Of a stretch of 59,742 nucleotides of DNA, positions 6,979-38,900 are shown piece after piece. Position 1 is the stretch's first letter; each line of letters begins with the position of its first letter. Position numbers and translations under genes: made by a program. Location: positions 1-59,742 of IMG/VR virus record IMGVR_UViG_3300021093_000080, one strand, 5' to 3'. Source of the stretch: a virus. The notes under the pieces were generated by a model that was not told where the DNA came from, made no database searches, and worked only from the letters and a program-made list of their open reading frames with translations.

Positions 6979-8694
6979 TTAGACGGTAGCTCCACCCCCT
7001 GGCGTGGTGCCCGGAGTACCGCCCGTAGATGGCGTGCCACCGGGTCCTGGCGTGGCTGTGCCTGGCGTTGGTGATCCTTCTCCTGGGGTTGGGTTTTCAA
7101 ACTGATCTAGATCTGATTGCAGTCCTGCCTGGCTGATTCCTGCAGTCCGCAGTTGGGTGGTTTTCGTCTGTTTCTTCTGCGCCACTGCATTTTCTTCGGA
7201 CCATAGTGTGCTGTTATGGGCCATTTCTTCTTCTGATAATCCTAAAAATCTCTTCAAAGCGAAACGTTTGCTCATGTAAGGCAGCTCTGCCACCTGCACA
7301 AATGTGCTCACTCGACTTTGATCCATCTCCGTCTGTCTGTACTGCGCGAAGTTCTGTGGTGGATTGAACTTTATCTCAAATGTGCTGTTGTCAATGGTGT
7401 AACCTTTGTTTTTGATCCACAATTTGAACTCCTCGTCAAACACCGGACCTATCAGGCTCTGCAATCTTTCGCAGTATTTGTTAAATCTCAATTCTTGGAT
7501 GTATGCCGTGCCCACTCTGCCATCGTTGTACTGTTGCGCGCCGTCGTCCGCCCCCGTTGGCAAATATGACGCCGGTATTCTGAGACCCCTGTACAGCTTG
7601 TTGGTGAAATATCTAAGGTCATCTATCTCTCCCAGGTTGGTACCGCCGGGCAGTGTGTCAACCTTTGATCCTCTTCCTTCCGCTGTCTGTGGGAAGAAGT
7701 AGTCCTCGTTGATGCTCATGGGGTTGTATGTGGCGTCGATATAGCTCATGCCTCCCGTGGTGCTGGGTATTCTTCTCTGATTGATCTCATTTTTTACTCT
7801 CTCCACGAATTGCATCGCCAGGTGGGTTGGCATGTTGCCAACATCTATATAGAACACTCTTCGTTCTGGTGCCCTCTGCACTCGATAAATGATGATAGCG
7901 TCTTCTAACAGTTCTTTCTGCTTGTAGACCTTGAATACCTGTTCCAGCACGGATTGACCAAACGGGAATAGATTGTCCATGCCATCTGACAGACTCATGT
8001 GCACCACGTGCTCGGCATTGATCGCATACTGATTCATGGTTCTGTAGAACCTGCCTCCGCTGCCGCCGGTGGGGTAGCTCATGCTCATGCCCTGCCCTGT
8101 GCCCATGTAGTTCTGATTGTATGGCCCACCTGTGGTGCCACCATACAGTTGATTTGGCGTGATCTGTGTGGCAGATAATTTTTGTAAATTGGGGTTGATG
8201 TCTCTGATGATATACTGTTCTGGAACCTTGCCTTCCGATTCATTCACTATGATCCTGTCGATCTTGGCAGGATCCATGTACAACCATTTGTTGGTCTCAG
8301 TATCTCTCACGAAGAAACAGTCACCATATTTCAAGCAGTTCCTAAAAATACGGAATATTCTCCTGCCGAACCTGTTGCTTTTCGTCCACTGTTGCAGTGC
8401 TTTCTTTAATAATTTTACTTCGGTCTCTGTGACATCGTCCTTGAATATCAGATCGAATGGTGTTTCGTTCTCATCATTGCCCTGCGTGCAAAATTCTGCG
8501 AGTATGTCCAACGCTGCATTGATCTCGGAGTCGTTGTCCATTTGATCATATTGAAAGTATCTCTGTATCCTGTTTGGATGCCCCGTGTACACGTCGGGCA
8601 GATAGGATGAATAATTTCTTTTGGCAAAATTGGGAGTCCTTTCCCCACTGATGGGGCTTAGATTGGGTTCTTTGAAATATTTTTTCCAGCTCAT
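6979..8694 (-). CDS. gp20: Portal vertex protein gp20
   Basis: A 571-residue portal protein that forms the dodecameric DNA-entry ring, nucleates prohead assembly and docks the terminase and neck. Family blocks are clear: YFQYDQMDNDSEINAALDIL, NRFGRRIFRIFRNCLKYGD, RAPERRVFYIDVGNMP and PGGTNLGEIDDLRYF. T4 gp20 is 524 residues. The extra length is a C-terminal tail of about 40 residues made of Gly, Thr and Pro (for example TPGPGGTPSTGGTPGTTPGG), likely disordered. It begins 13 bases after the tape-measure gene's stop and is followed by the small head genes. Confidence 0.95.
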   Translation of the reverse strand: MSWKKYFKEPNLSPISGERTPNFAKRNYSSYLPDVYTGHPNRIQRYFQYDQMDNDSEINAALDILAEFCTQGNDENETPFDLIFKDDVTETEVKLLKKALQQWTKSNRFGRRIFRIFRNCLKYGDCFFVRDTETNKWLYMDPAKIDRIIVNESEGKVPEQYIIRDINPNLQKLSATQITPNQLYGGTTGGPYNQNYMGTGQGMSMSYPTGGSGGRFYRTMNQYAINAEHVVHMSLSDGMDNLFPFGQSVLEQVFKVYKQKELLEDAIIIYRVQRAPERRVFYIDVGNMPTHLAMQFVERVKNEINQRRIPSTTGGMSYIDATYNPMSINEDYFFPQTAEGRGSKVDTLPGGTNLGEIDDLRYFTNKLYRGLRIPASYLPTGADDGAQQYNDGRVGTAYIQELRFNKYCERLQSLIGPVFDEEFKLWIKNKGYTIDNSTFEIKFNPPQNFAQYRQTEMDQSRVSTFVQVAELPYMSKRFALKRFLGLSEEEMAHNSTLWSEENAVAQKKQTKTTQLRTAGISQAGLQSDLDQFENPTPGEGSPTPGTATPGPGGTPSTGGTPGTTPGGGATV

Positions 8695-8707: not shown

Positions 8708-10924
8708 TTATATTATAGAAGGCCCCACTTTATCAACCACTTTGGAAGTTTTTTTGGTATTCTTCTCGGTGGCTGCATTAATGCTTACCAAGGTATTTAA
8801 TGCTTTGTTGTTGGCTTTTTGCAGCTCCAGTGTCTCCTTTGCAGTCATGTTGTACTGTGTCATTTGTGACGTCAGCATTGCATACTGAGCAGCAGCGCTC
8901 TGTCCTTCCTTGTTGTATTCCTGTGTTTCCTGCCGATTTAATACCCTCTCACCTGATTCCACTTGCAACATGCTGGTTTTGGGTTCAAATGGTAAACCTG
9001 TTTCGCCCAGGGTGCCCGTGGCGCGCTTCTCTGGTGGTTGCAGAGAGGCCATGCCCGCCGATGCTCCCAATATCGCTCCAATTACACCGCCAATCGCTGT
9101 GCCTATACCCGGAATTATACTGCCAATTGATGCTCCTGCCAGGGCGCCGCTGGCAGCACTGGTGCCAATGCCCAACAGTTTGCCCGCATCTGACTCCGAC
9201 GAGGCTGCCATGGCAGATCCTATACCGACTCCCGCGAGGCCAATCCCCACGCCACCTGCTACTCTGGCTGCTCCACCTAATTTGCCACCCATGCCGCCGG
9301 CTCCTCCGCCCAATCCTCCGCCCAGGCCACCGGCCATTCTTATACCAGCATAAGTACCCATAGCGTGTGTGGCTATTTGTCCTCCCTTGTCTAGTAAAAA
9401 TCCCCCAATGGTTTTGCCCATGTACAGCATAGCTTTGGTACCATTACTCAAGCCGTTGATTCCATCTGCTAGAGATTTGACACCATTGTTAAGTTGGTTG
9501 CCTGTGGTTCCTATAAAATTTCCTAATGTTGTGTAAAATCCCGTTTCGATGGATTGGAAACTGGAGCTGAGTCTCTTGGAGGAATCTTCAAACAGTGCGA
9601 GAGATTTAGTGGCTTTATCCTGTTCTGCTCTCTGTTCTTCGGTAACTGCTTTTAGATTTAGTTCGGCTGAGGCAAGTTGGTTAACCGCGCTGAATTGCCT
9701 CGCAAAAGCCACCTGTCCGGTCACTGCCACGCCTGCCAATGCTATGTTGGATCTCTTAGCAGCGTCTCTCAACATTATCATGGCCTGTGCAGAGTCTAGG
9801 GTTCCGGCGGTTAACTGTTGAATAATGCCGCTGGCCTCTGGTATGTTCTGCACCAACATTCTTGCAGACTCGGTGACCGGAGCCCCGGAGTTAGCAATCA
9901 AATCTTGGAAGCCTTCTTTCAATCCTGGGGACAATTCACCGATAGAAGCCGCAAACGCACTCAGTCTCTGTCCGGTCTCTTTGCTAACTGTGCCTAGGAA
10001 TGCTGTGAATCTTTCGTTGGTCAGCTGAGATTCTAACTGTTTGGCCAGTGTGGTTCTCTGTTGTCCTGTCAGTTTGGAAAGTTTGTCCAGTTCTGTTCCT
10101 AAACTTTCAGCTGATTTTATTTGATCCTGCGTTGAATCTGCAACAAAAGTACCTGTTCTTCTTTGTAAGTTTAACGTGGCCAGCAACACATCATTCAACT
10201 CATCCACTGTGAATCCCAGTGGTCCTAAACGTTCGATACTGGTTCTTCTAAACTGTTCGCTGAGTTGAGAAAATCTTTTTGCTCCCAGGGTGCTACTACC
10301 ATAAAGGGCTGCCAGGCCTTCACTGTTGCGAGAAATCAATCTCACAAAATCCTGCAGTGGCAGAGCCGCGCTGGCAGCAGTTTCTCTCAGCGTGAATAAA
10401 TTCTGTCCAAATGATGCCCCCACATTGGACAGCGTGCGGAATGCGTCCAGTGAGGTGTCAGCAAAATTACCAAAATTTTGTAAACCGATGCCTATGAGGC
10501 CGAGCCTATCTTTGAAAGCACTGGTGAATTCTGTGATAGAACCCTTGCCTGCATATGCGGCTTTGCCTAATTTTTCTAAAACATCAGCGGCACCGGTGGC
10601 ATTGTCTGCTTGTTTCTGAGCTGCAGTTTCGTTCAATCCCAGCTGTCTAAATAAGCTGTAAAATTTATTGTTTAATCCTTTGGTTGCCTCGATCTCTTTT
10701 TCTTTTGCATCTATCAACTTGTTTGTGAGATCGTTTAATACTTTTTCGTCCCTGGCATTTAGGTTCAATCTTTTGGTTAAATTTTTGAACTCATCGTTGA
10801 CTCGTTTGACTTGAGATGCGCTGAGGATTGGCGCCTTGCGTAATTCGTTGATAAGCCTAGTGATTTCTTTGACTAAATCTTGGTTATATTTGGCCAGTAG
10901 CCGCTGCAGTTCCTGTTCATCCAT
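8708..10924 (-). CDS. Putative tail tape-measure protein (gp29-like role)
   Basis: A 738-residue protein with the architecture of a tape measure. The first 110 residues are charged and helical (from MDEQELQRLLAKYNQDLVK). A long helical region of Ala, Leu and Gln follows. A glycine-rich, hydrophobic stretch at about residues 510-630 (GGLGGGLGGGAGG, later IGGVIGAILGASAG) resembles the membrane-active segment of tape-measure proteins. A short helical tail ends the protein. T4 gp29 is 590 residues, so the tail could be longer. The ATG at 10924 follows AGGGG at nine bases and lies 60 bases after a minus-strand TATAAATA. The divergent neighbour is gp26 with a frameshift frame, recalling the chaperone-plus-tape-measure pairing of other tailed phages. 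There is no clear sequence match to T4 gp29. Confidence 0.6.
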   Translation of the reverse strand: MDEQELQRLLAKYNQDLVKEITRLINELRKAPILSASQVKRVNDEFKNLTKRLNLNARDEKVLNDLTNKLIDAKEKEIEATKGLNNKFYSLFRQLGLNETAAQKQADNATGAADVLEKLGKAAYAGKGSITEFTSAFKDRLGLIGIGLQNFGNFADTSLDAFRTLSNVGASFGQNLFTLRETAASAALPLQDFVRLISRNSEGLAALYGSSTLGAKRFSQLSEQFRRTSIERLGPLGFTVDELNDVLLATLNLQRRTGTFVADSTQDQIKSAESLGTELDKLSKLTGQQRTTLAKQLESQLTNERFTAFLGTVSKETGQRLSAFAASIGELSPGLKEGFQDLIANSGAPVTESARMLVQNIPEASGIIQQLTAGTLDSAQAMIMLRDAAKRSNIALAGVAVTGQVAFARQFSAVNQLASAELNLKAVTEEQRAEQDKATKSLALFEDSSKRLSSSFQSIETGFYTTLGNFIGTTGNQLNNGVKSLADGINGLSNGTKAMLYMGKTIGGFLLDKGGQIATHAMGTYAGIRMAGGLGGGLGGGAGGMGGKLGGAARVAGGVGIGLAGVGIGSAMAASSESDAGKLLGIGTSAASGALAGASIGSIIPGIGTAIGGVIGAILGASAGMASLQPPEKRATGTLGETGLPFEPKTSMLQVESGERVLNRQETQEYNKEGQSAAAQYAMLTSQMTQYNMTAKETLELQKANNKALNTLVSINAATEKNTKKTSKVVDKVGPSII

Positions 10925-10950: not shown

Positions 10951-10958
10951 TATAAATA
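10951..10958 (+). promoter_or_regulatory. T4-type late promoter box TATAAATA for gp26
   Basis: A perfect late box, 43 bases before the gp26 ATG at 11002. It lies within the leader of the divergent tape-measure gene. Confidence 0.65.
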
Positions 10959-10983: not shown

Positions 10984-10991
10984 TATTTATA
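10984..10991 (-). promoter_or_regulatory. T4-type late promoter box TATAAATA for the tape-measure gene
   Basis: A perfect late box on the minus strand, 59 bases before the ATG at 10924. Transcription from it runs across the gp26 late promoter at 10951-10958. Confidence 0.65.
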
Positions 10992-11001
10992 GAATATAAA
11001 A

Positions 11002-11859
11002 ATGACAGAAAACACCAACCCATTAAAACGCTACTACAGGCAGCCGCAGATCAGCATACGCTTGCCCAGCGGTGAAAAAAACTATGCTGAAACAGTGGTG
11101 CAGAAGACCGTCACGGGAGAACACCCTGTGCTGCCCATGACTGCGATGGATGAACTGGCCTTCCGCACGCCGGACAGCATGATGAACGGCCAGGCCACGG
11201 TGGATGTGATCAAAAGTTGCATTCCCACCATACAGGATCCATGGCAACTGGTCAATCACGACATAGACACAGTGCTGATTGCCATCCGTATAGCCAGCTA
11301 TGGAGAGACCATGGACATCACGGCAGGAGTCCCGGGCACCAATCAAACACAGACACACACTGTGAACCTGCCACAGATGTTGGAAATCATACGGCAGGAT
11401 AAGATCACAGATCACTGTGAGCTGCAGGATGGATTGAAATTGCACATCGCTCCGCTGACCTACAAACAGATCACAGATGCACAGCTGAAAACATTTGAAC
11501 AACAGAGGATCTATGCGCAGGTGTCTCAGAGCAATCTCAGCGCGGAAGAAAAGACCAAGCGTTTCACGGAGAGTTTCCGGGTGCTGAGCGATCTCAATGT
11601 GGAGCTGCTGATCAACAACATCCAACGTATCCAGCTGCCCACGGGAGAGACGGTGACCGACAGAACTGCCATACTAGACTTCATCAAGAACGCAGATGCC
11701 AGGGTCATCAGAGAACTGGAAAACAAACTGGGCAACATCCGCCAGCAGGGTTCCATCAAGCCCGTCAGGGTCAAGGCCACGGAAGAGCAGATCAAGGCCG
11801 GCGCGCCCGCCAACTACGAAGTGCCCATCACGTTCGACAACGCAAATTTTTTCGTATAA
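11002..11859 (+). CDS. gp26: Baseplate hub assembly protein gp26
   Basis: A 285-residue protein of the T4 gp26 family (PF12322-type). Its N-terminal half has the family pattern: NPLKRYYRQPQISIRLPSGE, LPMTAMDELAFRTPD, ATVDVIKSCIPTIQDPWQL and DIDTVLIAIRIASYGETM. Marine T4-like gp26 proteins carry the same blocks; T4 gp26 is 208 residues. It is required for hub assembly in T4. The last codons are GCA AAT TTT TTC GTA TAA, which contain overlapping -1 slippery heptamers. A frame with no start codon continues from there to 12083, so a longer product of about 360 residues is likely. No Shine-Dalgarno sequence is obvious, and the late promoter is 43 bases upstream. Confidence 0.88.
   Translation: MTENTNPLKRYYRQPQISIRLPSGEKNYAETVVQKTVTGEHPVLPMTAMDELAFRTPDSMMNGQATVDVIKSCIPTIQDPWQLVNHDIDTVLIAIRIASYGETMDITAGVPGTNQTQTHTVNLPQMLEIIRQDKITDHCELQDGLKLHIAPLTYKQITDAQLKTFEQQRIYAQVSQSNLSAEEKTKRFTESFRVLSDLNVELLINNIQRIQLPTGETVTDRTAILDFIKNADARVIRELENKLGNIRQQGSIKPVRVKATEEQIKAGAPANYEVPITFDNANFFV
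11844..11853 (+). promoter_or_regulatory. Predicted -1 ribosomal frameshift site (AAATTTTTTC)
   Basis: In the gp26 frame the bases read A AAT TTT TTC, giving two overlapping X-XXY-YYZ heptamers (A AAT TTT and T TTT TTC) two codons before the stop. Slipping back one base at either gives the same junction (ANFFRIKLL) and enters an open frame of 77 codons ending at 12083. That frame has no ATG, GTG or TTG near its beginning. Confidence 0.65.
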
Positions 11860-12083
11860 AATTATTATCGCTCTCGGAATCTGACCTCATAAGATATCTC
11901 AAGGACCTCGAGACTGAAGGCAAGAGCATCAAGCACGAGCTGTTCAAGATCTGTTGGTACATGCGCGGTGGAGTTACCTATCAGGAAGCGCTGGCGCTGA
12001 GCCCCGCGGATCGCGACATAGTGTCCCGCATAGTCAAGGACAATCTGGACGTCACCAAGAAAACCGGGCAGCCATTCTTTTAA
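11850..12083 (+). CDS. gp26 frameshift extension (tail-assembly-chaperone-like frame)
   Basis: Seventy-seven codons in the -1 frame relative to gp26, giving a gp26-extension fusion of about 360 residues. The translated part contains LSESDLIRYLKDLETEGKS, then WYMRGGVTYQEALALSPADR and ends TKKTGQPFF. It is clearly protein-like and in the same codon style as gp26. The pattern of a small helical piece with a G-V-T-x-x-E-A-x-x-L-S-x-x-D-R core recalls the second frames of lambda-type G/GT tail chaperones. No canonical start codon exists in this frame before the Met inside WYMRGG, so translation by frameshifting is the simplest explanation. The alternatives are a non-AUG start or a sequencing indel. 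The T4 counterpart could be gp51, but I cannot show that from sequence. Confidence 0.65.
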   Translation, partial: FRIKLLSLSESDLIRYLKDLETEGKSIKHELFKICWYMRGGVTYQEALALSPADRDIVSRIVKDNLDVTKKTGQPFF

Positions 12084-12099
12084 CAGTTGTGCCCTGCGA

Positions 12100-12116
12100 G
12101 ATGTGCTGCGCACATC
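12100..12116. other. Hairpin 1 of the gap (7-bp stem)
   Basis: GATGTGC pairs with GCACATC around a three-base loop, 16 bases after the frameshift-frame stop. There is no T-tract. Confidence 0.55.
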
Positions 12117-12170
12117 TGAAACTTCGCTTGCGCTCGTTTCCTTTCCTAGTCCTGCTGCAGTGATTGCCAA

Positions 12171-12192
12171 GCGCGATGCGACAGCATCGTGC
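12171..12192. other. Hairpin 2 of the gap (9-bp stem, one G-T pair)
   Basis: GCGCGATGC pairs with GCATCGTGC around the loop GACA. It is very GC-rich compared with the flanking genes. Confidence 0.55.
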
Positions 12193-12196
12193 GCCT

Positions 12197-12277
12197 TATG
12201 TGCTAGATGAGCAGTCACAATTCGGCTATCGCTAGCCGAATCGACCGACCCTGCATATGTGCTGAGTTCGCAGTCAC
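12197..12277. repeat. Imperfect direct repeat flanking hairpin 3
   Basis: TATGTGCT, six bases, then GCAGTCAC occurs at 12197-12218 and again at 12256-12277, 59 bases apart, on either side of hairpin 3. Spacing between the half-sites is conserved while the six internal bases are not. Confidence 0.5.
12220..12241. other. Hairpin 3 of the gap (perfect 9-bp stem)
   Basis: ATTCGGCTA pairs with TAGCCGAAT around the four-base loop TCGC. There is no adjacent T-tract on the plus side. Confidence 0.6.
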
Positions 12278-12584
12278 CATACATCGCTGCTGTCGCCGGG
12301 CGGTTGTGCTGTACCCGTTAGCTCATTCATTACAACGCGAATCCATGTGGTCTCTGCATGATGATCCCACCTGGACCTGGAGTTGGATCTGTTTCCCAGA
12401 GCTCCATCCTTTTTGCCTGTCGCGTCAAGTGATTCGCCGCCCACCTGCATGGGAGTAGTTCACTGTTTTACCAAGGACGCTATAGAGCCTATTGTATTTT
12501 TTTTTTTGATTTTAAGATGCCTGTGTCATGTGTATATAATATGCGTATATTATTCTCAAGTGATTCTTGAGTTTAAATACGCAC

Positions 12585-13016
12585 ATGCAGTGGATCTACA
12601 GAAACCAGCCAGTGACCGAATTACCAAATGATTGTGTGGGGTTCGTATATCTCATTACCAACATGGAGAATGGTCGCATGTATGTGGGCAAGAAGCTGTC
12701 TAGATTCAAGACTACGCGATACAAGATGCACACGCAAAAAAACGGAAAAAAAGTGCGCAAAAAAATTCGCGGCGCTGTGGACAGCGACTGGCAAGACTAC
12801 TACGGCAGCAGTGATCAGCTGGAGCGAGACATAGAAGCTTTGGGCAAAGATCGATTTCGGAGAGAAATACTTTTCTATTGCAGGAGCAAAGCAGAATTGA
12901 ATTATGTGGAGGCCCGTGAACAGTTTGCCAGGAAAGTTTTGGAGTCTGATCGATACTACAATGGACACATCCGCGTGCGAGTGCATGGATCACTGATCAT
13001 TGATAAAGAATTATGA
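12585..13016 (+). CDS. GIY-YIG-like nuclease family protein
   Basis: A 143-residue protein. Residues 19-37 (GFVYLITNMENGRMYVGKK) match the GIY-YIG pattern in the degenerate form VYL...MYVG, followed by an Arg/Lys-rich segment (RKKIRGAVDSDWQDYYGSS). A C-terminal motif NYVEAREQ carries the glutamate expected of the fold. The family includes homing endonucleases (Seg) and repair nucleases. The gene is free-standing between a non-coding gap and a terminator, which suits a mobile Seg-like gene, but a domesticated phage nuclease is equally possible. The ATG at 12585 is preferred over an upstream TTG. It follows TTTAAATA by five bases, with no Shine-Dalgarno sequence. Confidence 0.65.
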   Translation: MQWIYRNQPVTELPNDCVGFVYLITNMENGRMYVGKKLSRFKTTRYKMHTQKNGKKVRKKIRGAVDSDWQDYYGSSDQLERDIEALGKDRFRREILFYCRSKAELNYVEAREQFARKVLESDRYYNGHIRVRVHGSLIIDKEL

Positions 13017-26915: not shown

Positions 26916-29900
26916 ATGGCGGACAGACCTCTAGACAGCCAATCAAACTATGATGTGATCACCAACGAAAATGGTGTGACCCTTAGAAGGTCAGTAGCAC
27001 ATCTACCCACTTTTTTCAGAACAGATGTTAACGAACGTTTCCTAAGTGCCACACTGGACCAACTGATTCAACCAGGCAAGTTAGTCAGATTGGACGGATA
27101 TGTAGGTAGAAGGAATTCTTATACCAGGTCAATCACAGATAAATTTATTGAATCGGGCATTGAAGACAGAGACAGTTATCAATTAGAGCCCACTGTAACC
27201 TACACAGACAAAGACACCTCTTCCATCAATCCAGAAGATCAAGTGAAGTTTACTGCCACCTATGATGATTACATCAATCAATTGAAATTCTTTGGCGGTG
27301 ATGCAAGCAATCATGACAGACTTAATAAAGAAAAAATTTATTCTTGGGATCCAGCCATAGATTTTGACAAGTTGATAAACTACAGGGAATACTATTGGAT
27401 GCCTGAAGGACCAAATCCCATATTAATCGCCAGCAGCGGAACCAACGCAGTGTCCGAAATCAATGTGACACACGGCGCACAATCCGCATATCTTTTTGGC
27501 ACATATCCGGGAAGCAATAATCCGTCGATCACGCTATACAGAGGCAACACGTATAAGTTCATATTTGACACTCATGGTCATCCTTTCTACATAATGACCG
27601 AGCCATTCAAAACTGGCGTAGCTGAGGACGGCAGCACATCGGTGATATACAGCACGGGGGTCTCAGGAAACGGCATTGAGGAAGGCACGCTAACTTTCAC
27701 GGTGCCCACAAGTGCTCCTGATGTGCTATACTACCAGTGCGGTAATCACCAGGCTATGCAGGGCGTATTCACCATAAGAACTATAGGCGTAGCAACCAAG
27801 ATAGATGTGGATCATGAGATCATAGGAACAAAAAACTATACTTTGAAATCAGGGACCAAATTATCAAATGGTATGAAAGTGAGATTTGAGAACAATGTTG
27901 CCAATTCCGCCTATGCCAACAAAGAATTTTATGTTGAGGGGGTGGGCACATCTATCACGCTCACTGACACTGCCAATATGATTGTGACAGGACCTTACAC
28001 AGAAGAGTCCACAGAACCATATGACGCCGTTCCCTATGCCGACAGGCCTTACTCGATCAGTTTTTATAGACCAGTAAAGCCCGATTACATAACGATCAAG
28101 AGAGACAGCATCGATGGCAACGCCTGGAGCAGATACAACAGATGGTTCCACAGAGCAGTGATAGAGGCCACTGCTGCAGCCAATGGTTACACACCTGTGC
28201 TGCTAGAAACAGACAGAGCCAAAAGGCCCATCATAGAATTTGATTCTGGATTATCTCTGTTCAATCACGGAACCACTGCCAAGAGATCGGTGACGTTGAT
28301 AGACACAGTGACTACGGATGTGTTTTCTAAAATGGTCAATACCACAGGATACATTGTGGATGGGGTGCCACTAGTGGATGGTATGAGACTGTTAATCACC
28401 GCAGACACAGATCCTCTAGTTAACAATAGAATTTATTTGGTAAATTTTGTCAAGGTTCAGGGGTCAGCAGTGACCACTCTGAGACTGTCCGAAGGGTCAG
28501 ACGCTTTGCCTTTGGACGGAGATGCAGTATCAGTGGAAATGGGGGCTGTCAATCAGGCAAAAACTTTTTATTACAGCACCAGTGAAAAGGCATGGATAGA
28601 GGGACAATCAAAAATGGATGTGAATCAACCACCCCTGTTCGCACTGTTTGATGAGAATCATAAAGCATTCAACAATGATGATGCGTATCCAAATTCCACT
28701 TTCACAGGATCTAGACTGTTTGAATACAAGATCAGTCCAACGTCCACAGTAGATCCTGTGCTGGGACTACAAATAAAATATTACACAGTAAAAAATTTGA
28801 GCGACATTGTATTCACTTCTGATTTCGCCACAGCATCTTTTCAATATAATATAGACGATAAGTCTTATACAAAAAATTTTAACACGGGACACGCACATCA
28901 AATTCTTTCCAGAGACAGACATGTCAACAGATGTGGATGGATAGAGAGAACAGAGGAGAGCAAGCAGAGAGTCACTAGATTATTTTCGGTTGATAAAAAT
29001 GAATTGAAGTTATTTCCTGTGGACGTGTTTGAAAACAGCAAATCGTTATCTGATTTATCCGTGACGGTGGATGTGAACCACGTCACTCAAAATTTAGGCA
29101 CAGATTACACCCTGGTAGACGGATTGACCTACAAATATGTGAAATTTGCGAAAAACCTAAAGGTAGATGATCTAATCAAATTGAGTTGTTACAGTTCAGC
29201 AAAAAAAATTGCCGGCAAAGGCATATATGAAATACCGGAAAACATAGCAGTAAATCCGTTCAACGCACAATTGAAAGATTTTACATACGGACAGATATTG
29301 AATCATTTACACGACATCAATGAAAAAAATGTGGAGATGATCGGCAAAACTCCCGGAAGCAGCAATCTCAGAGACATAGGCAACGTGAGATTACAGGGAG
29401 GCACAATAATTCAACATGGCGCTGCTTTGCCGCAGGCGATGTTTTTATTGATAGATCAAAACGCCAACGCTATTAAGTCGATAGAATACTGTAACTCTGA
29501 ATATACAAAATTCAAAGAAACGTTTCTAGCAAACAAGTCGGGATCACTGCATGAGGGTTCTATCGCAAGTAGAGTAGACGAAATAATCAAAAATATTTCT
29601 GAAAATAAGAATGTAAGTTTTCCTTTCTATTACGATGACATGATAGGGCATGGAGAAAATCTCTCAGTGAGAAAATACACAGTGCAAGATCCTGAAGAAA
29701 TAGAGTATGCCATCGATTCACAATTTGATACGACTACAGCGAGCAAAAGAGCGGTCTACATATACCTCAATGATCAAATATTGCTGTTGGGGTATGACTA
29801 TAATTTCAGTGCCGAAACAGATGGTGTTACCATAACCGCCACGTTAGCTGCTGGAGATATTATCACCATCAAAGATTACGCAAGCACTGTGGGCAGCTTC

Positions 29901-32900
29901 GTGCCTCCCACACCAACCAAATTGGGAATTTATCCAAAATTCAAACCTGAAAAAATCATAGACAATACCTATAGAACATCCGTGAACGTGATTGTGGGGC
30001 ATGACGGCAGCAGAACTATTGCCTTTGGTGATTATCGAGACGATCTTTTACTAGAGCTGGAAAAAAGAATTTACAACAATTGCAAAACTTCATTCAACAC
30101 AGATTTATTGTCCGAAGATGATGTGAGACCAGGGGTGTTTAGAACCACAGAATACAACAACAGCGAAATTGACAAAATATTGAGCTTAGATTTTTATGCT
30201 TGGGCAGGACAAAATGGCATAGAATATCAAAACAATTTACACTACGACGAAAACGATTTTTTCACTTTTAATTACAGCAAAAATAAAAATATTAAAAACG
30301 GAGAGAAGTTACCTGGATACTGGAGAGGCATATACAAATATTTCTATGACACGGATAGACCACACACACATCCTTGGGAAATGTTGGGCCACAGTGAAAG
30401 ACCTTCCTGGTGGGTAGGCACATATGGACCGGCACCTTATACTTCGGGCAATGAATTATTGTGGAATGATCTGGCAGCAGGCTATGACACAGGATTGAAG
30501 AAAACTGTCGAAAAATACAAGAGATCTGGGCTGTCTGGCTATATCCCAGTGGATGCCAATGGTAATTTAAAATCGCCTGTCGCCATTGGCTTGATAGATC
30601 AATATCAAAATCTTGGAATAAAAGAACGTTGGAAGTTCGGAGATCAAGGACCTAGCGAAACGGCATGGCGCAGAAGCAGCCAATATCCTTTCAGCGTGAT
30701 GAAGTTATTGGCACTCACCAAACCAGCCAAATTCTTTGGATATTTCTTAGACAATAGTAGATTAGGAAAAAATGTGGCAGGAAATTATGTCAATACCAAG
30801 ACACAAGTAGCACCCACGCTGGCATCTTCCACATACTATTTGGATACCACGGGCGGATCCACGCCAAGTATCACAGCTGGGTATCAGCCGTTCATTGTCA
30901 ACTATTTGATCAAATGCGGGCTAGATCCTGCCGCTTTCTTTTACGACAAAATGAAAAATCTTAATGTGCAATTGGCATACAAATTGGGAGGATTCACAGA
31001 TAAACAAAATTTGAAAATTTTGACGGACAGCGTGAGCCCAGGCTCCACTTCCGGATCCCAATTCATTCCAGACGAAAACTACAAAGTTGCATTTAGGGTC
31101 AGTAACCCTGTAAGGGATTACGATTATTCTGGGGTGTTGGTGGAATTGAATTCAAATGTTACCAGCGATGGCAGCACTCTTGAAGGAGGATACAAGATCA
31201 TTGGATACAACAATATAAAACCTTATTTCAGGATTCTTAAACCCGTAGAGAATAACAATTTACACTCGATCTCCATTGGCAACAGCAGTGCAATCATCTA
31301 CAATGATTACAGTGAGAACGAGACTGTTGTTCCTTATGGCACTGTATTCAATACCACGCAACAGGTGATCAATTTCTTGGTAGGCTATGGAAAATATCTA
31401 GAATCTCAAGGATTTGTCTTTGATAACTTCAGCAATGAAATAGGAGAGATAAACAACTGGGAAACTTCGGCCAAGGAATTCCTTTACTGGACCAGGCAAA
31501 GTTGGGCGGCAGGTTCGGCCATAACATTGAGCCCGGGAGCTGCGGGATTCGTGCTTAAGACCAGCAACAGTGTGATCAGCAAATTTCAAAATACATTGGG
31601 GCAATACTCTGTGTTGGATTCTGGCGGCCGCGCGATAGGAACTCAATATATTTCAACCAAACGCATCGGCAATAAATTTTCTATTTCTATGAAAAATACG
31701 GAAGAGGGCATCTATAACATTTCAATGTGTGCCGTGCAGAAAGAACAGATTCTACTTTTTGACAACATCACGGTGTTCTCCGACATCATATTTGAACTGG
31801 TTACAGGATTCCGCCAGCAGAGATTGAAACTAGTGGGATGGAAAACCGCTGACTGGAACGGGGATTATTATTCTCCAGGATTTGTATTTGATGAAGCCAA
31901 GGTGGACAGATGGGTGGCAAACAGGGATTACCAAATAGGAAACACAGTTGAGTATCTCAATGGATTCTATACAGCCAAACAGAACCACAATTCTGGCCTG
32001 AAATTTGAGTTTGAGAGATGGACTAAAAAAAAAGCCAAACCATCTGCCCAACTGATACCTAACTTTGATTATAAAATTTCTCAGTTCAATGATTTCTATA
32101 ATTTGGAAACCAACAACTTTGACGAGACCCAACAGAAATTGGCACAGCATTTGACAGGATATCAATCTCGGCCCTATCTGGAAAACCTCTTCTTGAACGA
32201 TGTTTCTCAATATAAATTCTATCAAGGATTCATCAGGGAGAAGGGCACGCTGAACGCTATAGACAGATTGGTCAAGGCCAAATTTTATGGAGAGGACATC
32301 AATATAAATGCTTATTCGGAATGGATGATAAAGGTTGGAGAATTTGGAAATCTAGACGGCAGCAAATCGATACAATTGATACTGCCCGATAATAATTTCA
32401 CCAGCAACGCTCAAAGCATTGAATTGTTGAATGATGATAATGACGCAGAAGATTACGCGAGATCACTTTCCATAATCAGTGATAATTTTTACTCCAAGCC
32501 ATTGGAGTACTCAGCTTCCAACACATTTTCTAAATATGATTATTCCCAGCAGGGATATGACAGAGATTTTGTGCAAAAATACAAAACTGCAGGCTATGTG
32601 AGAATCACAGATGCGCAACACACCGCGTTCAACGTATCAGATATATTGAATCTAGATGTCAACAGGATCAACAACAAGGACCTAATATGGATAGCAAAAA
32701 AATCCAACAATGATTGGGACGTGCAGAGGATCACTTACACGGGACTAAACCTTATCACAATAAAACCAGTCAACAACAATACACAAGTAATTTTGGGATT
32801 CAACGGGGTGCACAAGTTGACAGCCGACCAATACATAGCCATAAACAACAGCCAGTTCCCTAATATGAATAAGGTGTATCAGGTGAGACTAATTGTAGAT

Positions 32901-35900
32901 GCCACTTCTGTCTTGGTGGATTTCGCCAATGCCACCACAATCAGCGGATCTTTCACAGTCAGGGACGAATCCACGGTGGCAACATATGGAAACCTGTATC
33001 GTTTCATCAGTGTGAGATTGGCCTCGCTTGACACAGTCAATGAGGTGTTGCCATACGATGAATACAAAATCGCGGACACTGTAAATGAAAAGCCCGGAGA
33101 TAAAATTTTTGTGGACAATGTGGGATCTCAGTGGAAAATTTATGAAAAAGTGGATCCTTATGTGATCAAAAGAATAGCGTCTTCTGATGTTGCAGACAAT
33201 CAGGAGTTTGGTTATAAAACAGTTGCCAGGTCCGATGGGAAATTTATCGCAATATCTGCGCCCGGCGATAGGGGAGGAACATCTCAAGGGTTCGTGAATT
33301 TCTTCAGCAGACTTGACAATCAGGCAGGATCGGTGTTCACACTTATAAACAGTCGCACAATGAGCGACAGCACCACCGGTACCGGTAGGCTGGGTGAGAG
33401 TTTGAGCATCAGCACCGATGAAAATTTTATAGTGGCGGGGGCTCCGTATGCCAATATTTTAGCATCAGATGGCAGCACAAGACGCAACAACAGCGGGTTA
33501 ATAAAATTATTCATTTGGAATCCTATAACAAAAGCATACGATGAATTCACAACCATAACCCCAGCAGATGACGGCACAGAAAATATAAATTTTGGTTGGT
33601 CGCATGCACTGGCGGAACCCACCGCGGACAGCGATGCCAGTGTGAGACAGAAATATCTTTTGGTCGGAGCTCCCGGATATGCCAGCGACACAGGAATAGT
33701 TTATCTATACACTTATACCCCCGTGGAAGACAGCACATTTGCCGCATGGACGCAGGACAACAGTGTGGTCAGCAGCCAGGCAGACACAAATAAAAGATTT
33801 GGCCATAGGATGGCCATCAACGACAACGGTGACATACTTGCGGTGTCTTCAGTGAGCCCAGATGATGCTGGCATGGTGGAGATCTTCGTAAGGAATAGTC
33901 CGGACAGTGTTGACAGCACCACGTTAGGATTCACTCATGTGCAGACCTTCAAGGGGACGTCGTCTCAAGATAGCACACTCAACACAGCGTTTGGAGAGAG
34001 TCTGTCCATGAGCAAAGATGGAAGGACATTAGTGATCTCCGCTCCGGGTAAAGATAATTCATCACAAGCGGATGCTGGCGCAGTATATGTTTACAAATGG
34101 AACATGGACGGTTCAACCAACACTTACACATTACACCAAACGATACAGTCCCCAGAAACTGCCACCAACATGCGGTTCGGTTCCACAGTACACATCAATC
34201 ATAATGCTGACAGATTGGTCATAGGAGCAGAAAAATTTGCAAACAGTCGCACACAAAAATTTGACAGTGGATCGACCACATTTGATTTACAAGACACTAA
34301 CATAGTGGATGTCAACATAGGATCTGGAGGAGTTTTCACTGCAACCAAATACAACAGCAATTTTATATTGGATGGCAAATTGATCACGGATAATGTGTCG
34401 GCCAATGACGATTTTGGTAGAGCTGTGTGGGTGATCGATAACACCGTATTTGTGGGAGCGCCTGGAGATGATTCGAAATATTCAAACGATTCTACTAGCG
34501 TAAATGATGGCATGGTAGCTGTTTTTGACTTGCAAAAGCAGGGATCATACAGCTGGAAAGTGTTACAACAAGAAGAGTCTTTGATCGATGACAGATTGAT
34601 AGATTCAGCTTTCGTATTTGATCGAGCAGCACAAAAAATTAAATCTTACATAGATTATTTTGATCCGATCAAGGGCAGGATACTGGGCATTGCGGATAGA
34701 GAGATCAATTACAAGACCGAATGGGATCCAGCAGTTTACAACATAGGCACAAATAGTGTCACGGTGAAACCAGACATGAGTTGGGCCGAAGAGCACGTGG
34801 GAGAAGTTTGGTGGGATCTCAGCAAGGCCCGATGGATATGGTATGAACAGGGCAACCAGGAATACAGAACTAAAAATTGGGGCAAACTCTTTCCTGGCAG
34901 CACGATTGATTTGTATGAATGGGTAGAGTCCACTCTATTGCCATCCGCGTGGAGTCAGCAGGCTGATAGCGCACTGGGATTAAGTCGAAAGATATCGGGG
35001 CAGCCTTTGTACCCAGACGACACGGTGCTGACTGTGAGACAAAAATATGATTCTCGTTTGGATGGTTTTATCAATTACTATTATTACTGGGTCAAAAATA
35101 GTGTTTACCTGCCTGACAGTGCCAAGAGTGTGGTCACCAGGGTGAACACCACGGGTTACATTTCCAATATCATAACCAATCCCAAAGGGTCAGGCATCAG
35201 GCATTTTGCGGTGTCAGATCAAAACAAATTGATTGCATTCAATATGAAAAATGACATCACCACCGACAACACTGTGTTGAACATCACTTATAAAGATACG
35301 GTGGAAGAAGGTGATGCGCATTATGTTTGGAAATTGATTAAAGAAGGTGATAAGGACGATGCGCCCAATGCACAGATTGAGAGAAAATGGTGGGATAGCT
35401 TGATCGGTTCTGACGAATCAGGCAACGAAGTGCCAGATATCTCGTTGTCTATAAATCAAAGATACGGCAACAAAATCAGACCAAGACAGAGCTGGTATGT
35501 GGATCGATTTGATGCGCTGAAAGAGATTATTGATTATACAAATTCAATATTGGCAAAGAATCAAATGGCCAACAACATAAGATACAAAAATCTTAATTCA
35601 TCAGAGCCTGAACCAACTGCCATATCAGGTGAGTGGGATAGCACTGTGGACACCTATGACGATTTGACCTATATTGATACCAGAGACATCAGCGGCACCA
35701 CCAACGTGCTGGTTAAAAATGATCAAAAATTTAGCAAAGGCTTTTGGGCCATCTATAATTGGAATGGTGCCGAATGGGTTAGAACCAAGTTACAAACATT
35801 CAAAACCAGTGCTTATTATTCCGTGATTGATTGGTATGATGTTTCATTTGATGCAAATGCTGCAATAGAGAAACAGCTGAATTTTCAGTATGAATTGGAT

Positions 35901-38900
35901 GGATTGACATTAGAGAATGGCAAGTATGTAAAGATTTTAACAGCCGATACAGGAGGTTGGAAGATATTCGAGAGCACATCAGATGGTTTCAAAAATATCG
36001 CCACGCAAAATGGCACCATTAAATTAAAAACTTCTCTGTATGACTATACTATCGACAACAAGGGATTTGACGGGGAGGATGCCTTTGACATCAATTTCTT
36101 TGACACAGAACCAAAGATAGAACTGAGAAAAATTCTCACAGCCCTGAGAGATGATCTATTGATAGGGGACCTTAAAATAGAATACAACAACATTTTCTTT
36201 ATCGGGCTAAGAAAAGTACTAGAGCAACAGAAATATGTTGATTGGCTATCAAAAACGTCATTCATCAATGTATCCAATATTTTAAGAGAGCTAGATCAAA
36301 GAAAAAGCTATAGGGTCAACACGGAAAATTATGTGGAAGAATACATCAATGAGGTCAAACCATACCATACCAAAATCAGAGAATATAGATTGGGCTACAC
36401 CGGGCTTGACATTGAGGATGGGATATATTCAGATTTTGATTTGCCCGCTTTCTATGACGGAGATGAGATTAGAAATGTGGACATAGTGAACGACATAGCT
36501 GTGCTCAGCACATACCCTTATCGTTTTTGGAGGGACAATTATAAAAAATATGTGGATAGTATCACAGTGATGTATGGTGGCAGCGGATATTTGACTCCGC
36601 CCACAGTGACATTGGTAGGGGGAACCACGAAGACGGTCGGACCATTCACGGTGTTGGGAACCAGCACCCAGGGTGCTTCTTCGGGCCAATTTGGATATTT
36701 TTATCCTCTGTACACTGCGCAAGTTGATGCAAATATTGCTGATTCCCAGGCCGGGGGAACTGGAACTAGTCACCTATTAAAATTCAGTGAATTTTCGAGT
36801 ATTGATTTCTATATGCCGAACACAGGGCAAAATGTTGCCAAGGTGGATAGACCCGCGGGATATGAAGTTTACACATTGAGCGATGTGACACAGGCCACAG
36901 CTAGAGCAGTGATCAGCGGAGGCGCTGTGTCTAGAATTGTGGTATTGACGAATGGAAAAAATTACACTTCAACACCTAGAGTGATCATTACAGGTGGAGG
37001 ATTGAACGGCAACACTCCGTTAGATTCCGCCAGGGCCTATGCAAATCTTAGAAATGATCTAGTAAGGGATATCAGCACCACAATCAAATTTGACCGTGTT
37101 CAATCTACGGCCACAATACTGCCATGGGCCAGCAACAAGACTTATGCTTTTAATGATCTTATTAGATATGATAATAAACTTTATAAAGTTATTACAACGT
37201 ACACCAGCACAGAAGATTTTGACGAAGGATTGTCAAAGCTCTTGGCACTAAGGGGAGACGAGCCATACATCACAGCGGCAGAAAGAACGCTAGGATTGTA
37301 TGCTCCTACAGCGGGCATGCCGGGCAATGAGCTTTCCCAGTTGATGACTGGAGTAGATTATGGTGGCGTCATGGTGACAGGATTGGCCTTTGATGATGGA
37401 CAGGGTTGGGACAGATCTCCATGGTATAACTTGCCATGGGATGGATTTGGTCTGAGCAGAGTAAAAGTATTCTATGGTGATGGCACCACTATCAACTTTT
37501 CTTTTGATTTTGCTCCATTGCCAACTGACGTGTACACAGTTTATTTCACCGACATCAGCGATTCCTCGGCCCAATACCCTGTCGCCATGTCTAACGTTAA
37601 CAGAGTGAGACAGAGAACTCAGGTTCTGAGGGGGGATGGCACCACCAAAACATTCACCATCTTGGGAGATGATGGTAATCCAGCTCCTGCGAACACGGTC
37701 ATCGAATTGATACCCTTTGATGACGACGGAGTGTTGACACCTACCGATGACAAAACGCTGGATTCCTTGATCAGCGGTGGACTGTTCAAATCAGCGCTGG
37801 GAGTATCGCCCACAGATATACTTGTGGAAGGTGACGCTTTCATCACACCGGAAACCAGCTACGCCCCAGAAGAAAATCTACCCGGCAGCATATTTGACTC
37901 TGTGGATATCCGAGTCTACACAGCGCCCACCTCGGGAGTGCCGTTCATCATAGTGAAAAACTACATAGGGGACGGATCAGTCACTGTGTTCCCAATCGGG
38001 CAACTGGCGGGCACACAGGCATCTGTGGTTGTTTCACTTGATGGCGCAACACAGACTTTGAACTCAGAATACACGGTAGACACACAAAACAAAACAGTGA
38101 CATTTGCAGCGGCACCGTCGGCAGGCAGTAAAATTTCAATTAAAAGTTTTGCCATATCTGGCAGCAACTATATGGTCCTAGACACATTTGTGGGTGACGG
38201 TTCCACGCATTCATTCATTACCAAGAGCAGAGAAACCTATCAATTAGACAGCTCACTCAGCCAATTGTTTGTCACAGTGGATGGTGTGCCCACAACAGAT
38301 TACAGCTACACGGTGAGTGGCAGGAACATCACCGTGCATCTACACACGGGGGATGGATCTACCGCCAATCCTCCAGCAGCTGGGACCAGCGTGCAGATAG
38401 CATCGTTCAATCAGCCACCAGGCAGCGGCAGGGCCTATGCTGAAATAAGGTCACAAGAGATAGTGTATGATGGCAGCACTAGTGATTACACATTGTCATA
38501 TCCTCCGGGATCAATAGGTCCTTTTTCAAGTTTGACTTTGTTAGAACATAATGGAAAAGTGCTGAGAGGACCCGACAACACTTATTATTTGGGTGATGGA
38601 AGCAGCAATACTTTTTCATTCGCTGGCTATGCAGGATCTACTCAAGACGACAGTACCTCTGGATACGTGGACGTAAAATTTGGGGAGCAAACTGGCATTC
38701 TAAATACACCTATATCAATAGATTCATGGCCTGTTCATCCAGCAGCAGAATATAATGGTGTTTGGTACCTGGCGGTCACGCGAGAGGAAGTGTCAGGAGA
38801 ATTGGCCACCGCCAAGTACTCTTTAGTGCATAATAATACACAGGCCTTTGTGAGCATGTCATCAATCACCAAAACAGGAATAGCGGAGCATATCACAGTT

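Follow-up and report, generated by a model that had tools for sequence, protein, structure and literature searches.

The window analysed here, the whole 59,742-nucleotide stretch of a viral record (IMGVR_UViG_3300021093_000080), carries a homologue of T4 gp26 that ends in a slippery sequence and is followed, in the -1 frame, by an open extension. A probable tape measure gene lies beside it on the opposite strand, with a T4-type portal gene beyond that. The features of the locus are:

6979..8694, minus strand: portal protein gp20 (PF07230, E 1.4e-112)
8708..10924, minus strand: divergent neighbour of gp26, probable tape measure protein, 738 aa (phrog_794, E 1.1e-7)
10951..10958, plus strand: TATAAATA, T4-late-promoter-like, pointing to gp26; in 41/50 relatives
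10984..10991, minus strand: TATAAATA, T4-late-promoter-like, pointing to the tape measure gene; in 47/50 relatives
11002..11859, plus strand: gp26 homologue, putative short tail-assembly chaperone (TAC-N), 285 aa (PF12322, phrog_150)
11844..11853, plus strand: double slippery site A AAT TTT TTC (AAATTTT 11844-11850 and TTTTTTC 11847-11853)
11850..12083, plus strand: -1 frame extension (TAC-C), stop TAA at 12081-12083
11880..11884, plus strand: TCTGA element, specific to the lineage and with conserved bases; starts 26 nt past the heptamer

Comparative sets

Scanning IMG/VR with the gp26 protein yielded 59 window-like loci (50-100% identity), which have 51 unique junctions. With additional scans and records the collection came to 235 loci that have a gp26 homologue whose stop can be read, picked by gp26 similarity and not by heptamer. 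From the cyanophage scan and from a scan designated A2, which had at least 598 and at least 593 loci, only the 80 best-scoring were kept in each case, so that the sample is not a random one. T4-type loci (L069, L075-L085) were excluded from the 235 and looked at separately.

The gp26 gene and its surroundings

The gp26 homologue belongs to the T4 gp26/gp51 family: it matches the Pfam family T4_baseplate (PF12322) with E 1.5e-11 and 44.9 bits against a cutoff of 24.5, and phrog_150 (baseplate hub) with E 3.6e-14. No other protein of this 59.7-kb record, possibly a fragment, matches PF12322. AlphaFold2 modelled the protein with a mean pLDDT of 84.8, the final seven residues scoring below 50. This model had no match in the PDB at E <= 0.001, a PDB sequence search returned designed proteins only (E 0.2 or worse), and among the 50 BFVD matches listed in the fold search one was plainly named a tail assembly chaperone (E 0.028, TM 0.25).

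From the letters alone, the divergent neighbour had been taken for a putative tape measure gene, and its match to phrog_794 (tail length tape measure) supports that assignment. A tape-measure-like gene lies divergent beside gp26 in all 49 unique window-like loci with at least 800 nt of upstream sequence. The window therefore has the adjacency to a tape measure gene that characterizes G/GT chaperone pairs, in divergent orientation. Because the window's tape measure protein finds few matches elsewhere by tblastn (19/64 A2-scan, 1/14 isolate and 0/73 cyanophage loci), this adjacency is shown chiefly for the window's own lineage. By position, the order portal, structural or hypothetical protein, divergent gp26 recurs in PA5oct, PBECO4, XbC2, CBB, phiKp_21 (where the portal is unlabelled) and Phosso; it was not seen in Atu_ph07 and Vibrio phage 2.275.O.

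Between the two divergent genes lie two copies of TATAAATA, which we take to be the consensus box of T4 late promoters. Among 50 window-like relatives, 41 have the plus-strand copy upstream and 47 have the minus-strand copy; in random windows these numbers are 13 and 17 of 1020. Across the whole window the box occurs 4 times against 1.9 expected, and 13 of 100 shuffles contain at least 4.

Just downstream of the locus, at 12567-13016 (+), is a GIY-YIG endonuclease gene of SegE type (PF19835, E 6.3e-34), which also matches PHROG 447, labelled NAD synthetase, an apparent mislabel. Elsewhere in the window, 26916-40880 (+) forms one open reading frame of 4654 aa.

A conserved slippery site at the end of gp26

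Read from the sequence, the 3' end of gp26 is GCA AAT TTT TTC GTA TAA. The first-pass annotation had described two overlapping canonical -1 heptamers near this stop, and their positions confirm it: AAATTTT and TTTTTTC each fit the reading frame as X XXY YYZ, and a slip on either would give the same predicted junction, ...ANFF-RIK... (ANFF, then RIKLL...). TTTTTTC by itself is not rare in the window, where it occurs 39 times on the two strands against 17.5 expected; the site is significant because the heptamer is conserved among relatives, not because the heptamer is rare. All 59 window-like loci in IMG/VR keep CAAATTTTTTCG and all have the -1 extension. Counted over unique junctions, CAAATTTTTTCG is invariant (51/51) and the double heptamer always present (51/51). 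The extension stops after the same number of codons in 57 of the 59 loci, and contig ends cut the remaining 2.

This conservation extends across the T4 superfamily. An in-frame TTTTTTC, TTTTTTT or AAATTTT was found in 234 of the 235 gp26 loci, which come from cyanophages and from KVP40-like, CC2-like, jumbo and marine phages; TTTTTTC accounts for 223 of them, TTTTTTT for 1 and AAATTTT alone for 10, and the one locus with none is that of Vibrio phage SD25 (Ackermannviridae). With identical junctions removed, the canonical site is present in 210/211. Beyond the heptamer, 227 of the 234 loci have a complete extension, always of at least 50 codons, and in the other 7 the contig ends first; among unique junctions the complete extensions reach 56-79 codons past the slip. 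The proposed comparison with relatives, which looked for a kept heptamer and second frame, has thus come out in favor of the site both in the window's lineage (59/59) and in the wider set (234/235).

A T ends the codon preceding two Phe codons in 224 of 224 loci, across nine different amino acids. Given each gene's own codon usage, the three-codon site has a mean probability of 0.10, and the log10 product is -206 over 199 loci that are related and hence not independent; codon usage does not explain the site's conservation. The control was a set of 797 other stop-to-stop frames from these same loci, each 150 codons or longer: just 3 have TTTTTTC in frame within the last 25 codons, and some XXXYYYZ heptamer occurs there in 100. 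Ten loci that combine AAATTTT with just five T keep the extension.

A canonical heptamer is absent from all six Ackermannviridae-type records (SD25, D504, which was placed by similarity, Kuja, UPM 2146, Ds3CZ and BX-1), yet the -1 extension is kept. Four of these (SD25, BX-1, D504 and Ds3CZ) have a TAATG stop-start overlap, and phages of this type may rely on re-initiation or on a slip at a non-canonical sequence. In Rhizobium phage RL38J1 the site reads TTTTTTG, and an ATG lies 2 nt past the gp26 stop.

As regards existing annotation, the startless part of the extension is entered as a shorter gene in Atu_ph07 and S-RIM8 and has no covering gene in PA5oct, Asswx_1 and UPM 2146. Some marine and jumbo phage records thus give the C-terminal domain as a shorter gene of its own, or omit it.

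The -1 frame encodes a selected protein domain

In the window the -1 frame stays open from 11850 to 12083 for 77 sense codons, which read FRIKLLSLSESDLIRYLKDLETEGKSIKHELFKICWYMRGGVTYQEALALSPADRDIVSRIVKDNLDVTKKTGQPFF, and the predicted long product has 284 + 76 = 360 aa. The first-pass annotation was right about the 77 open codons; where it saw no ATG, GTG or TTG at which translation could begin, it needs correction, as the frame has an ATG at 11961 and a GTG at 12021. The earlier of these lies 37 codons inside, within the conserved motif WYMRGG, and a listing of open reading frames that begins at the first ATG, GTG or TTG after a stop gives the extension as 11961-12083. The window thereby shows the overlapping, selected frame with no usable start near its beginning that is expected of a G/GT pair; among relatives the picture for start codons is mixed.

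Evidence that this frame codes for protein comes from the window-like loci, whose 51 unique junctions include 49 complete extensions. The -1 frame is free of stops in all 49, and both other frames contain stops in all 49. Median dN/dS for the extension in this lineage is 0.14 over 184 usable pairs of 400 sampled (identical pairs and those with no usable dS were left out), and variable columns at the three codon positions number 50, 33 and 70 of 73, the third position varying most. In the window's lineage the -1 frame is protein-coding and under purifying selection.

Modelled alone with AlphaFold2 (43 sequences), the window's extension is helical with a mean pLDDT of 90.5, and it is predicted to fold confidently by itself as a helical domain. 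A PDB sequence search found no solved relatives of the extension, its fold model had no PDB match at E <= 0.001, VIA-align of the helical model reached a best Z of 5.0, too low to carry meaning, and the best PHROGs matches had E 0.07 or worse. NCBIfam gave nothing for either of the window's two proteins, gp26 and the extension.

Candidate stimulatory signals

We folded 50 nt starting 5 nt past the heptamer and computed z-scores against shuffles, with two control stretches for comparison. Downstream z-scores fell below -2 in 1/51 window-like, 36/76 cyanophage, 30/67 A2-scan and 6/13 isolate sequences; the corresponding counts for the two control stretches were 2 + 2, 4 + 1, 4 + 2 and 2 + 2. Downstream folding in the window's lineage is therefore no more stable than in shuffles. 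RNAalifold gave no consensus structure in 20 window-like relatives, nor in a cyanophage set of 37 sequences, which took every second one of 74 and whose alignment ignored structure. As alignments of the window-like and cyanophage sets give no consensus pairs, the folding signal of cyanophages, isolates and the A2-scan group consists of per-sequence z-scores and not of covariation. Individual sequences, for example those of loci L177, L206 and L223, do show stems that follow a 6-7 nt spacer. Rfam had no match in 11700-12200. The first-pass annotation had suggested predicting a downstream stem or pseudoknot; in the window's lineage the prediction yielded no stem.

An SD-like string precedes the heptamer in 54/77 cyanophage, 0/51 window-like and 0/68 A2-scan junctions, and in cyanophages it may be imposed by the amino acids encoded there. 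The window's lineage has neither the downstream stem-loop nor the upstream SD of a classical -1 cassette, although such stimulators are not required in all known cases of -1 frameshifting. Within the A2-scan group, a comparison of 28 loci with the double heptamer and 28 with TTTTTTC only gave no sign of a trade-off between double heptamer and stem (Mann-Whitney p 0.55).

What the window's lineage does have is a TCTGA element, present at the same spacing in 49 of 51 unique window-like loci. The Ser codon in this element is TCT in 50/50, compared with 16 of 242 for the other Ser codons of the same extensions. The commonest position of a candidate pairing partner, shared by 25/51 loci, lies merely 6 nt before the element, and we claim no partner.

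A model of the gp26 locus and its alternatives

Very probably, gp26 makes a short and a long tail-assembly chaperone through -1 programmed ribosomal frameshifting. Most ribosomes would stop at 11857-11859 and release the 285-aa short form, while a minority would slip back one base on A AAT TTT TTC and read to 12080, producing the 360-aa long form, whose C-terminal part would consist of 76 helical residues. If the locus works like lambda gpG/gpGT, the short and long forms would together coat the tape measure protein encoded by the divergent neighbour, and the scarce long form would use its extra domain to bring in parts of the tail tube or baseplate. Slippage and its efficiency, like tape measure binding and the chaperone role, are what we infer; what the computation shows is the conserved site, the selected -1 frame, the tape-measure-like neighbour and the paralogy of gp26 and gp51.

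The extension could instead be a small gene in its own right, reached by re-initiating ribosomes or read from a start inside it; in cyanophages (as 'gp51') and in some jumbo phages it is annotated as a separate gene. Start codons near the gp26 stop are indeed frequent in some groups: within -6 to +10 nt of the stop, an ATG is found at 42/77 cyanophage, 6/13 isolate, 8/68 A2-scan and 0/51 window-like unique junctions, and counting ATG, TTG and GTG raises these numbers to 44, 8, 20 and 33. The 33 window-like cases are TTG or GTG, and the window itself has neither. PBECO4 and XbC2 carry an ATG 2 nt after the stop and S-SSM7 one at +5, four Ackermannviridae-type records have the TAATG overlap, and S-SSM7 and S-RIM8 are annotated with separate genes. 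The first 20 codons contain some start in 42/51 window-like, 74/77 cyanophage and 47/68 A2-scan junctions, but no ATG, GTG or TTG in 9/51 window-like, 21/68 A2-scan, 3/13 isolate and 3/77 cyanophage junctions. Relatives whose second frame has its own start had been named in advance as a refuting case; they do exist, but we do not take them as refuting because they keep the slippery heptamer. Re-initiation does not explain the window, because its first start lies 37 codons in, nor PA5oct, because ATG, GTG and TTG are absent throughout its -1 frame. It is also insufficient more broadly because the heptamer and the residues FFR, which precede such starts and are conserved in the -1 frame, are near-invariant, and it gives the heptamer no reason to persist in 234 of 235 loci. 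We consider a separate gene quite improbable as the explanation of the extension; re-initiation may nevertheless add to frameshifting in those branches where the sequence has an ATG by the gp26 stop.

The same fused protein would arise if transcriptional slippage on the T run added one base to some mRNAs, and the six-T run at the site, along with the identical product sequence, is compatible with this. Six T are, however, short for polymerase slippage, all 224 of 224 loci have T as the last base of the codon that precedes the two Phe codons, and the stems seen at a 6-7 nt spacer in loci such as L177, L206 and L223 fit a ribosomal mechanism. Because ten loci have just five T after AAA, with an intact extension, slippage in transcription is less likely, and we regard it as very improbable. 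A homopolymer at the junction also raises the question of a sequencing or assembly indel, which the first-pass annotation had listed as a possible refutation, or of a decaying gene. The identical site in 59 metagenome contigs, like sites in isolate genomes and purifying selection on the -1 frame refute such an error, and we give this reading almost no credence. A different objection accepts the frameshift and takes the pair for a component of the baseplate hub and not a tape measure chaperone. The family names do say baseplate hub, and a T4 review cites genetic support for gp26 as part of the hub (PMC3004832). The same review nevertheless lists gp26 and gp51 as hub assembly chaperones, with gp51 absent from the particle (PMC3004832); a short and long frameshift pair beside a tape measure gene is the hallmark of tail-assembly chaperones (PMC5009743); and the title of a further paper identifies tail-assembly chaperone genes of T4-like phages. 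A hub component therefore appears unlikely to us, and we retain the frameshifted chaperone pair as the preferred reading.

T4 gp26 and gp51

Both T4 gp26 and T4 gp51 match PF12322 (E 8.8e-64 and 3.9e-52) and are therefore paralogues; gp51 consists of a gp26-like domain and an additional C-terminal part. When a profile of this C-terminal part (8 sequences) is compared with one of cyanophage, KVP40-type and CC2-type extensions (16 sequences), the match has a probability of 95.9 and E 5e-9. A profile built from jumbo and window-type extensions gives only weak, non-significant matches: to the gp51 C-terminus (probability 4.9, E 0.008), at an end of the gp51 part that the first match also covers, and to the cyanophage-type extension (probability 5.5, E 0.007), over the same stretch. 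The suggestion that the extension does the work of gp51 thus gains from the paralogy and from the cyanophage match, but the window's own extension resembles gp51 only weakly.

The T4-type set comprised 11 loci, one of which has no gp26 in its flank. Among the remaining 10 gp51-bearing phages, several of them near-identical to T4, none has a slippery heptamer in gp26, and gp26 of 44RR, read by eye, has none either. A Phe pair still ends gp26 in 7 of the 10, encoded in all 7 as TTC TTT. The view of the locus as the T4-superfamily form of the G/GT pair is supported by comparison with relatives, but does not extend to T4 itself, which has two genes and no slip site.

Discussion

Counterparts of lambda gpG/gpGT exist in P2, Mu and HK97, and in lambda the tape measure gene is collinear with the chaperone genes. 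Compared by architecture, the window resembles lambda in having a short protein and a -1 frameshifted long form, a tape measure neighbour and a slip site before the stop of the short reading frame; it differs in its poly-T/AAATTTT slip site, its divergent tape measure gene and its 285-aa PF12322 short form. According to a 2016 review, the lambda forms coat the tape measure protein, the extension recruits tail parts, and T4 is excepted from the widely conserved G-T frameshift (PMC5009743). A 2010 review describes gp51 as essential and of unknown function, and gp26 and gp51 as hub assembly chaperones (PMC3004832). T4 and the window share a Pfam family, and the C-terminal part of gp51 matches the cyanophage -1 extension; T4, however, has two genes and no slippery site, whereas the window has one PF12322 gene in a 59.7-kb record that is perhaps a fragment.

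Tail-assembly chaperone genes of T4-like phages were reportedly identified by Vladimirov et al. in 2022, to judge by their title. Passages in later papers that cite this work state that some T4-like phages carry a short gene and a fused long gene (PMC10885494) and that the TAC-N genes of T4-like phages are known to contain poly-T slippery sequences (PMC12846349). The chaperone of Vandenendeviridae and Andersonviridae, as presented in the latter paper, is like that of the window in its poly-T -1 frameshift and in a conserved extension often annotated as a separate hypothetical gene; these are other phage families, and their motif is GTTTTT as opposed to A AAT TTT TTC (PMC12846349). The cyanophages S-SSM7 and S-RIM8, like the window, have a gp26 that ends TTT TTC with a -1 extension. 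Cyanophages differ from the window in the length of the extension (59-68 codons versus 76) and in their SD-like strings (54/77), stable downstream folding (36/76) and ATG codons near the stop (42/77). The titles and abstract openings that we searched, a search that most subscription papers lie outside, contain no report of the frameshift in cyanophages or jumbo phages. The chaperone identity and, it seems, some T4-like frameshifting are therefore already in print; as far as we have seen, the additions made here are how widely the site occurs, the lack of it in those gp51-bearing phages that were sampled, a double heptamer without a stem, and the TCTGA element.

On the explanation that we find best, T4 and its close relatives would encode the short and long pair as the paralogous genes gp26 (short) and gp51 (long). 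The simplest history suggested by these sequences is that one frameshifting gene was duplicated in the ancestors of T4, the direction of change being a proposal; one copy would then have kept the short form and the other would have fused the extension in frame. A broader reading would join these points: frameshifting would be ancestral and prevailing in the T4 superfamily, T4 gp26 and gp51 a later replacement, and the window's lineage would boost slippage by two overlapping heptamers and a structure-free TCTGA signal in place of the stem-loop of many relatives. Taken as a whole, we hold this joint reading to be possible but rather doubtful.

For the biology of the family, the frameshifting locus gives gp51 a simple rationale, as the long form relocated to a gene of its own. 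More generally, a frameshift site is kept in almost all of the relatives sampled, once T4's close group and the Ackermannviridae type are set aside.
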